Shown here: positions 23,821-25,284 of the stretch, one piece after another
Position numbering within the stretch: position 1 is the stretch's first letter
Layout of the letters: every line of letters begins with the position of its first letter
Virus record (IMG/VR): IMGVR_UViG_3300017725_000063
Span: 1-25,436 of that record
DNA: 25,436 bases
Reading direction: 5' to 3' (one strand)
From: a virus
Translations under genes and position numbers: made by a program
Notes under the pieces: generated by a model
What the model saw: only the letters and a program-made list of their open reading frames with translations
What the model was told of the DNA's origin: nothing
The model's database searches: none

Positions 23821-24066
23821 TTGAAATATCAAACCAAAGAAGAGGCCAAGAAGGCGCTCGTTGTTCGATTGCCTGCCGGGGTCAAAGCCCGATTAGATAG
23901 CGCTTCGCAGTCGCAGGGGATATCGCAAAGCCGGTTAGCTTCTGAGCTGATATCAGAGGGATTGAACCAATCTGTAAGCCTGGAGGCGATCCTTGATGAT
24001 GTCGGCGTCGTGATCGAGGATGACACCGATCAGACTGACATTGAAACGTGGCTCAATCGCATATGA
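23821..24066 (+). CDS. Ribbon-helix-helix repressor-like protein (81 aa)
   Basis: The RHH motif is near the N-terminus: strand ALVVRLPAGVKARLD, helices SQGISQSRLASELISEGL, as in Arc/CopG-type DNA-binding proteins. A C-terminal acidic tail (DDVGVVIEDDTDQTD) may serve in dimer contacts. The start is taken as TTG at 23821, with AAAGGAAAGAAAG at optimal distance; an earlier TTG at 23800 lacks such a site. It begins the plus-strand early operon, and the intergenic region it shares with the minus-strand operon contains a palindrome. It probably regulates one or both operons. The stop overlaps the RusA start (ATGA). Confidence 0.7.
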   Translation: MKYQTKEEAKKALVVRLPAGVKARLDSASQSQGISQSRLASELISEGLNQSVSLEAILDDVGVVIEDDTDQTDIETWLNRI

Positions 24067-24479
24067 CTACGACATATATATGGCTACCAGGTCAACCGAT
24101 CGGCAAAGGTCGGCCCAGGTTTACTCGCACGGGCAGAGTTTACACGCCAGAGAAAACGCGCAGATATGAGCATCGTCTGGCCGGTACTGCATCAAATTAC
24201 ATGATGCTGCGCCAGTTAGAGCCGACAACAATGCCATGTCATATGGTTATCAAGGCCCAATTTGAAATTCCGAAAAGCTGGACGAAAACAAAGAAGGCGG
24301 CTGCTGCGGCTTATGAGATATTACCCGGCAAGCCTGACATCGATAACATTGCCAAGATTGTAATGGATAGCTTTTCGGGCGTGGTGTTCGAGGATGATGC
24401 CCAGGTGTACGATCTAAAGGTTGTCAAAACTTACGGAGATCCATGCCTGTTGACAGAAGTCACTTGCTCGAAGTGGTAA
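24063..24479 (+). CDS. rusA: RusA-like Holliday-junction resolvase
   Basis: Codes for 138 residues. The ATG at 24063 overlaps the RHH stop; an upstream in-frame ATG would lie inside that gene. The family signature is clear: PIGKGRPRFTRTGR near the start, KPDIDNIAKIVMDSFSGVV (D92, D94) and FEDDAQV (D111, D112), the acidic residues that bind metal in RusA. E. coli RusA is 120 residues. It resolves four-way DNA junctions produced by recombination or replication, here together with the ERF/Sak annealing protein. A small gene starts inside its last 37 bases in another frame. Confidence 0.87.
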   Translation: MTTTYIWLPGQPIGKGRPRFTRTGRVYTPEKTRRYEHRLAGTASNYMMLRQLEPTTMPCHMVIKAQFEIPKSWTKTKKAAAAAYEILPGKPDIDNIAKIVMDSFSGVVFEDDAQVYDLKVVKTYGDPCLLTEVTCSKW

Positions 24480-24610
24480 CAGAAACGCCCCTGCAATTTC
24501 TTGCAAGGGCGATAGGACTGGGTTACATTGAAAGAGCCAACAACAATGCAGGGTCAGAATATACAAGCCCTGCCCAAATGAAAAGGGTAAAACGATGTCA
24601 CATTACATGA
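24443..24610 (+). CDS. 55-codon ORF bridging RusA and the replication gene
   Basis: ATG at 24443 preceded by GGAG (5 bases away), with the frame running 55 codons and overlapping the next gene's start by 16 bases. It fills a gap of 115 bases otherwise without a gene. The product is a short helical polypeptide (HLLEVVTETPLQFLARAIGL) with a basic C-terminus (MKRVKRCHIT). No family is recognised. A stable hairpin within the frame (24486-24511) makes the alternative, a purely regulatory leader with translational coupling, plausible. Confidence 0.45.
   Translation: MPVDRSHLLEVVTETPLQFLARAIGLGYIERANNNAGSEYTSPAQMKRVKRCHIT
24486..24511 (+). promoter_or_regulatory. Stem-loop downstream of RusA
   Basis: CGCCC-C-TGCAA (24486-24496) pairs with TTGCA-A-GGGCG (24501-24511) around a TTTC loop, ten base pairs with one mismatch. 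It lies six bases after the RusA stop. No T-run follows, so not a standard terminator; mRNA stabilisation or attenuation are options. It also lies inside the 55-codon frame. Confidence 0.45.
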
Positions 24611-25284
24611 CTGCACTTGCAATGCAGCAAAAGGGATTGAAGCCAGCAACTAAGGTTGTCTTGTATTGGCTTGCAGATCATCACAACAGTGAAACAGGTT
24701 TGTGTTTCCCAAGTCTAAGCATACTAGCAGAGGAATGTGATTTAGATCGATCAACAATTATCAGGCATATTGTGATTTTAGAGGGCAAGGGGTTGCTCAT
24801 GAGAGTAAACCGCAAGCGTAAAAACGGATCTACAACTAGCAACGGATATCAATTATTGCTAGGAAAACAACCCGTCGGAAAATACGACCCCCCCCGTCGC
24901 AAAATGCAACCCCCCCCAGTGGAAAATTGCGACCCCCTTAACCTTGGAAGTAATAACCTTGGAAATATAACCATTAATATAAACACCATTTTCGATTCGA
25001 TGTGGGAAATGTATCCTAAGAAAGTTGGTAAGGGTACAGCAAGGAAGGCACTGGCCAAGGCATTGGCAAAAGCTCCAGTCGATCAGATCCAACATTCGCT
25101 AGCACTCTTTGTCCGTTACTGGGGACAGCAAGACAAGAAGTTTATGCCACACCTGGCAACCTGGTTGAACGGTGAGCGCTGGGACGATGAGATTCAGCAG
25201 CCGTCTCTCCAGGACATGACAAGCGACCAGCAGATGCAGGCCATTCTAGGCTCACTGGCAACAGACAGAAAGATGATTCAATGA
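24595..25284 (+). CDS. Replication initiator, lambda O-like / HTH_36 type
   Basis: Codes for 229 residues. Residues 15-88 form a winged HTH: KVVLYWLADHHNSETGLCFP, SLSILAEECDLDRSTIIRHI, ILEGKGLLMRVNRKRKN. Residues 95-112 are a Pro-rich linker encoded by the 22-bp iterons. Residues 132-200 hold the C-terminal domain common to phage replication proteins: FDSMWEMYPKKVGKGTARKA, MPHLATWLNGERWDDE. Proteins with this pair of domains bind the phage origin, often inside their own gene, and recruit the helicase or its loader. AAAGGG precedes the ATG. The stop overlaps the next gene's ATG (ATGA), in the place where lambdoid phages have the loader. Two C8 runs in the linker are slippage-prone. Confidence 0.78.
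   Translation: MSHYMTALAMQQKGLKPATKVVLYWLADHHNSETGLCFPSLSILAEECDLDRSTIIRHIVILEGKGLLMRVNRKRKNGSTTSNGYQLLLGKQPVGKYDPPRRKMQPPPVENCDPLNLGSNNLGNITININTIFDSMWEMYPKKVGKGTARKALAKALAKAPVDQIQHSLALFVRYWGQQDKKFMPHLATWLNGERWDDEIQQPSLQDMTSDQQMQAILGSLATDRKMIQ
24862..24942 (+). repeat. 22-bp iterons inside the replication gene
   Basis: Three units in register: 24877-24898 (GGAAAATACGAC + C-run), 24899-24920 (GCAAAATGCAAC + C-run) and 24921-24942 (GGAAAATTGCGAC + C-run, then TTAAC). A shorter, related unit precedes them at 24862-24876 (GGAAAACAACCCGTC). The period of 22 is not a multiple of three, so each unit is read in a different frame and protein selection cannot maintain the match; the DNA itself must be what is conserved. 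Two units contain C8 runs (24888-24895, 24910-24917). Confidence 0.72.
24939..24990 (+). other. AT-rich unwinding-type region beside the iterons (putative origin)
   Basis: Directly after the iterons comes TAACCTTGGAA, given twice (24939-24949, 24954-24964), then an A/T-rich stretch (AATATAACCATTAATATAAAC). Iterons followed by an AT-rich stretch inside an O-type gene is the layout of the lambda origin. The region also codes for residues 115-132 of the protein (the repeated NLG). Origin function is inferred. Confidence 0.55.

Follow-up and report, generated by a model that had tools for sequence, protein, structure and literature searches.

The locus described here raises the question of what an array of DNA repeats does in the middle of a marine phage's gene for a replication initiator: whether it forms the origin of the phage, or serves the expression of the gene or the sequence of its protein instead. 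The window, i.e. the whole stretch of DNA that was analysed, comprises 25,436 nucleotides (IMG/VR record IMGVR_UViG_3300017725_000063) and is closed by this O-like gene (Table 1). The initial annotation of the window had proposed an origin inside the initiator gene and, judging from sequence comparison, was very probably right: paired changes in the repeat arms, conserved spacing and a recognition helix that co-varies with the repeats all support the proposal.

Table 1 Features of the initiator gene, its repeats and the neighbouring resolvase gene (positions in the window)
Feature	Position	Strand	Basis or remark
RusA-like resolvase gene, replication/recombination module, just upstream of the initiator	24048..24479	+	PF05866, 2.4e-30
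O-like replication initiator gene, 229 aa	24595..25284	+	PF13730, phrog_270, AlphaFold model
Codons 51-57 (DRSTIIR), start of the predicted recognition helix (52-64)	24745..24765	+	Column correlation, model
Iteron 1	24871..24892		Dyad GTCGGAAAATACGAC, centre 24881
Iteron 2	24893..24914		Dyad GTCGCAAAATGCAAC, centre 24903
Iteron 3	24916..24937		Dyad GTGGAAAATTGCGAC, centre 24926
Two TAACCTTGGAA copies, 15-bp spacing, local form of the AACC repeat element	24939..24964	+	Codon bias, AACC clusters
AT-rich tract, candidate unwinding region	24939..24995		~30% GC; function suggested by the lambda layout (PMC7466680)

The three 22-bp direct repeats of the initial annotation were recovered mid-gene, spanning 24871-24937, with identities to unit 1 of 86% and 77% for the other two units. 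Their starts are spaced by 22 and then 23 bp, so that units 1 and 3, 45 bp apart, share one reading frame and unit 2 is out of frame. When the 22/23-bp triple was scored along the sequence by sliding, it gave 36 of 44 matches at 24871, whereas the highest score among 100 first-order Markov sequences of equal length was 26. A search of the window with the unit pattern, allowing up to three mismatches, returned three sites, all within the array, against 0.37 expected. The repeats are real and not a product of chance. The AT-rich stretch with a duplicated sequence, also noted initially, is present to the right of the array: TAACCTTGGAA occurs in exactly two copies in the window, at 24939 and 24954 (the TAACC pair), and the GC content is 30% at 24940-25019 versus 46% window-wide. 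The layout is thus one of several same-orientation repeats beside an AT-rich region, as in iteron-type origins.

The encoded protein matches HTH_36 (PF13730) with an E-value of 1.1e-14 and 54.4 bits, against a curated cut-off of 25, and replication-initiation PHROGs, among them phrog_270, replication initiation protein (1e-36). Three parts can be distinguished, namely a winged helix (residues ~1-96), a disordered linker that is encoded by the iterons (97-126) and a C-terminal helical domain (~129-200). The AlphaFold model predicts a winged helix-turn-helix fold with the recognition helix at residues 52-64 and low confidence for the linker. Fold comparison of the whole protein returned generic winged helices without a stand-out match; the pSK41-type Rep (4pql; Z 8.7, 84 residues, rmsd 2.7) is matched no better than many other winged helices, and the search for sequence relatives of solved structure gave none that was convincing (best E 0.91). 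Relatives were found in 130 phage records, all below 60% identity to the window protein. Residues 1-40 of the initiator (MSHYMTALAMKQ...LYWLADHHN; window 24595-24714) are near-invariant in relatives, unlike the variable recognition helix.

Each unit is in addition an imperfect dyad around an A-rich centre, of types such as GTCGCA-AAA-TGCGAC and GTCGCA-AAA-TGCAAC, a property absent from the initial annotation. Relatives were gathered in two ways: viral contigs were searched for similar proteins, and further sites were collected through the exact TAACC pair. Across them the arms vary in sequence but the dyad centres are fixed relative to TAACC, at -58, -36 and -13 bp: the mean dyad score (of 7 pairs; 35 dereplicated sites) peaks at 4.29, 4.20 and 4.54 at these offsets, respectively, against a background of 1.86 over all offsets. 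An extra 15-bp unit that had been placed near 24862 finds no such backing, being absent from the list of the repeat finder and having a mean dyad score of ~2.5 near that offset in relatives, close to this background, compared with 4.2-4.5 at the true units. The arms change in pairs, with several positions seen as G.C, C.G, A.T and T.A in different relatives, and 60-65% of cells are paired, falling to 16-30% when the partner position is offset by 1-3 bases. Units resemble each other within a genome (identity 0.71-0.74) far more than between genomes (0.38); in one relative, L005, TGGCAGAATCTGCCA and TAGCAGAATCTGCTA lie adjacent. A loss of the 22-bp spacing from a conserved protein had been named beforehand as evidence against the origin. 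In a comparison confined to a few registers, the best fit among 43 dereplicated relatives placed the centres at -58/-36/-13 in 36, with the array shifted by one codon in the other seven. The exception is L095 (L095:180-290), excluded from this count, where the last iteron alone is recognisable and the two upstream units have apparently been lost.

Base contacts of such a protein are expected at the start of the recognition helix. In the co-variation set of 43 dereplicated relatives, with the recognition helix taken as ten residues (51-60) at fixed positions, the distance between iterons correlated with that between recognition helices (r 0.68) and not with that between C-terminal domains (0.07). 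Controlling for the remainder of the DNA-binding domain gave a partial correlation of 0.65, a value attained in none of 10,000 permutations, and with a fixed register the values were 0.63 and 0.58. Column by column, iteron sequence was best correlated with residues 53 (r 0.61), 56 (0.56), 51 (0.52), 57 (0.48) and 54 (0.36), and all remaining columns, out of 58 scored in the DNA-binding and 85 in the C-terminal domain, stayed at or below 0.21. Mantel-type permutation tests leave shared ancestry partly in, which inflates them somewhat, yet ancestry would not pick out those five columns. The classes can also be seen by eye, D..S..IR pairing with GTCGCAAAATGCGAC, S..R..E with TRCGCAAAATCTGCGCA and S..R..Q with TGGCAGAATCTGCCA or GGTGCAGAATTTGCACC. 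At pair 6 of the dyad, Glu-56 accompanies C.G and Gln-56 mostly G.C or T.A. That iteron sequence tracks residues 51, 53, 54, 56 and 57 is strong indirect evidence that the initiator binds the iterons in its own gene. Sites that shift in step with the DNA-reading helix are as expected of a built-in origin of the lambda type.

Binding as such would also suit a different function, in which the dyads act as operators, for autoregulation of the initiator or as a roadblock, with the origin at another site. Co-variation of the sites indicates that they are bound but not for what purpose, and HTH_36 is a generic DNA-binding domain. However, the array is found mid-gene, ~280 bp past the start codon and beside the AT-rich tract, the nearest protein families are annotated for replication initiation, and the annotated lambda iterons occupy the same place. 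Moreover, the review PMC5703833 describes an initiator of plasmid pPR9, with pfam13730 as its N-terminal domain, that supports a mini-replicon and whose region sustains autonomous replication. We therefore consider the operator function improbable.

Selection could instead have acted on the protein, with the repeats arising from slippage that duplicated a proline-rich or low-complexity linker. The predicted disorder of the linker and the poly-C runs between the units would fit this, as does the fact that part of the symmetry survives synonymous recoding: the family mean dyad score is 13.1 as observed and 9.2 after recoding, so that the coding sequence accounts for part of the symmetry but not all of it. 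In several relatives recoding often attains the observed score, probably in part due to a misplaced anchor there. Recoding of the window gene matches its observed score in 0.5% of trials; the window iterons are among the weaker dyads, no linker centre reaching 6 of 7 pairs. Against protein-level selection, the same DNA encodes different peptides in unit 2 and in units 1 and 3, the arms change in pairs, and the iterons follow the residues of the recognition helix rather than the C-terminal domain, which leaves this explanation very unlikely. Hairpins in the initiator mRNA, acting in translation or copy-number control, would likewise give paired arm changes with short loops, but they are highly improbable, being disfavoured by the lack of an excess of G.T mismatches (35) over their complement A.C (44) among unpaired cells, by the three copies keeping the same sequence within a genome, by co-variation centred on the recognition helix of a fold that binds DNA, and by the lack of any Rfam match, RNA gene or tRNA.

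The reading of the array as an origin gains further from the TAACC pair. In 28 dereplicated genes of the protein-similarity set, the peptide NLGxNNLG is encoded with AAC at 56 of 56 positions, CTT at 50 of 56 and GGA/GTA at 55 of 56, although CTT makes up 20% of leucine codons in the same genes; a Gly to Val change in this peptide leaves the DNA word intact but for one base. Judged by this codon usage, the pair is conserved at the DNA level. A search of named phages with the pair as a 30-mer gave matches at chance level only.

Beyond the immediate relatives, coding-strand AACC runs adjoin the iterons in many diverse phage initiators. A survey of 99 dereplicated initiator genes, in which start queries and groups were chosen by us so that the shares are not a census, showed that AACC forms clusters, defined as 3 or more copies within 60 bp, more often than any other tetramer, namely in 67% of genes compared with 40% for the next tetramer, whereas its reverse complement GGTT was clustered in 1-2%. 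In the MR15 group, which has DUF1376 instead of HTH_36 as its N-terminal domain, the period is 7 bp, so that the reading frame changes at each copy; in others it is 11, 12-13, 15 or 17 bp. Overall, the copies occupy all three codon phases. In DUF1376-type initiators (L201:937-1731 and relatives L299-L366), GTGCAC-type dyads are followed by AACC at an exact 7-bp period in up to 8 copies. Synonymous shuffling lowered the share of genes with at least 3 copies from 0.86 to 0.25 in the Labrenzia group and from 0.52 to 0.10 in the window family; the decrease in the MR15 group was from 0.67 to 0.47, the peptide itself forcing many copies. The AACC run looks like a second, conserved origin element. 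The copies are one-stranded and their sequence is kept while the iterons diversify, and their variable spacing is ill-suited to one face of a duplex, from which recognition as a single strand after melting is proposed. Tentatively, and with rather more doubt than confidence, AACC may represent an undescribed second origin element across HTH_36 and DUF1376 initiators, which would suit single-stranded recognition by a conserved part of the machinery and whose role might be likened to that of the repeats in chromosomal unwinding elements. No description of AACC repeats at phage origins was found in the literature searched, whose coverage leaves out most subscription journals. Part of the Labrenzia group (L421, L422 and L426) also has an inverted CCCCCC/GGGGGG repeat ~20 bases past the AACC run, within the coding sequence.

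Intragenic origins of this kind have well-studied counterparts. In lambda, dimers of O bind dyad iterons within the O gene and the adjoining AT-rich tract melts (PMC7466680). In lambda ori and the Stx phages P27 and 933W, as in the window, the iterons lie inside the initiator gene and are interrupted inverted repeats whose centre is rich in A (PMC7466680), and the annotated lambda iterons, spaced 20, 24 and 23 bp, share with it a spacing of 20-24 bp, mostly not in threes, before an AT-rich tract. The lambda-like layout of the initial annotation thus stands for the intragenic dyad iterons and AT-rich tract, but not for the protein: lambda O belongs to PF04492 (5.7e-36 with the same library), which the window protein lacks, matching HTH_36 and other HTH families only. 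Lambda furthermore has four iterons and no AACC cluster in O, and no homologue of lambda P was recognised beside the window initiator. The latter is a functional analogue of lambda O outside its Pfam family, and belongs with the HTH_36 phage initiators. Initiators of Labrenzia phage vB_LagS-V1, mEp460 and Arthrobacter phage TaylorSipht, and likewise those of Rhodobacter phage RcDormio and Vibrio phage D77, share with the window an N-terminal domain of this type, linker repeats or dyads, and AACC repeats to the right; they depart from it in the sequence of the arms, the number of copies and the period of AACC (11, 12, 13 and 17 bp versus 15). More generally, in cultured phages with HTH initiators (RcDormio, the Labrenzia phage, Vibrio phages, mEp460 and others) the repeats are in the same place with AACC to the right. 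The staphylococcal plasmids pSK41 (RepA_N) and pPR9 share with the window a three-part initiator with a DNA-binding N-terminus, an intragenic origin and a C-terminal domain; the Rep of pSK41 binds boxes inside its own gene, and the linker encoded there is dispensable (PMC5703833). Unlike the window, these are plasmid systems with antisense copy control, and RepA_N (PF06970) gave no match in the window protein at E 0.1.

Combined, the intragenic array, its dyad symmetry and fixed geometry, the co-variation of iterons with the recognition helix and the DNA-level conservation of the TAACC pair support the view that 24871-24995 is the phage replication origin inside its own initiator gene, which, together with the following mechanism, we consider highly likely. 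By analogy with the lambda and pSK41/pPR9 origins, the N-terminal winged helix, probably dimeric, would insert one recognition helix into each dyad half, and three initiator dimers would fill the three iterons. The wrapped complex would then melt the AT-rich tract to the right (24939-24995), where the TAACCTTGGAA pair is a putative conserved contact within melted DNA or its flank, and the replicative helicase would be recruited by the C-terminal domain, a partner or both. What we infer from this arrangement is the binding of dimers, the melting, the loading of the helicase and the start of replication here in the cell.

No helicase loader was recognised beside the initiator, and the gene that follows it, of 176 aa, matches no PHROG or Pfam family. 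The second gene downstream encodes a weak HTH_36 protein (PF13730 5.6e-06, phrog_270 2.1e-06 for the L182 copy), located between initiator and terminase (L001:4140-4748, L182:12961-13569), possibly an initiator paralogue or a helicase-loading partner. The virion module is podoviral, with tail and head proteins in the window and a head-tail connector (PF12236) in the relative L182. Its combination with this replication module had appeared unexpected, but there is a precedent in Salmonella phage SI8 (Lederbergvirus), a P22-like podovirus that also bears an HTH initiator of the same kind. GC skew, put forward earlier as a marker of the origin, was rejected as such. Its cumulative minimum was displaced from the array: among six records, five had it 0.5-1.3 kb upstream of the motif and the sixth 1.7 kb downstream. 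As it coincides with divergent transcription, i.e. a change of gene direction, it does not locate the origin.

In bacterial genomes, the TAACC-pair pattern gave 32 matches, 29 of them without an O-like gene and three in O-like genes, all from Rhodobacterales (Donghicola, Thalassobacter and an uncultured Rhodobacterales). Initiator relatives were also present in Rhodobacterales genome records (L158:5636-6436, L151:1209-1559 and L161:3058-3423), which suggests that they belong to prophages. Both observations point to Rhodobacterales as the likely host group.

The interest of these origins lies in a readable specificity code and in the AACC element. Dozens of natural initiator/origin pairs are available in which contact residues and site co-vary while scaffold, spacing and flanking element stay constant, so the code by which an origin-binding winged helix recognises its site could be read from sequence and tested by swaps of residues and sites. 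Phages appear to diversify origin recognition, perhaps avoiding incompatibility, and the AACC element, if confirmed, would provide a common landmark for phage origins and a handle on how the DNA opens. As a minor observation, runs of eight C residues are located between the iterons (24888-24895 and 24910-24917), where slippage in replication or a sequencing misread is possible; the run length is the same in the closest relatives (L002 and L004).
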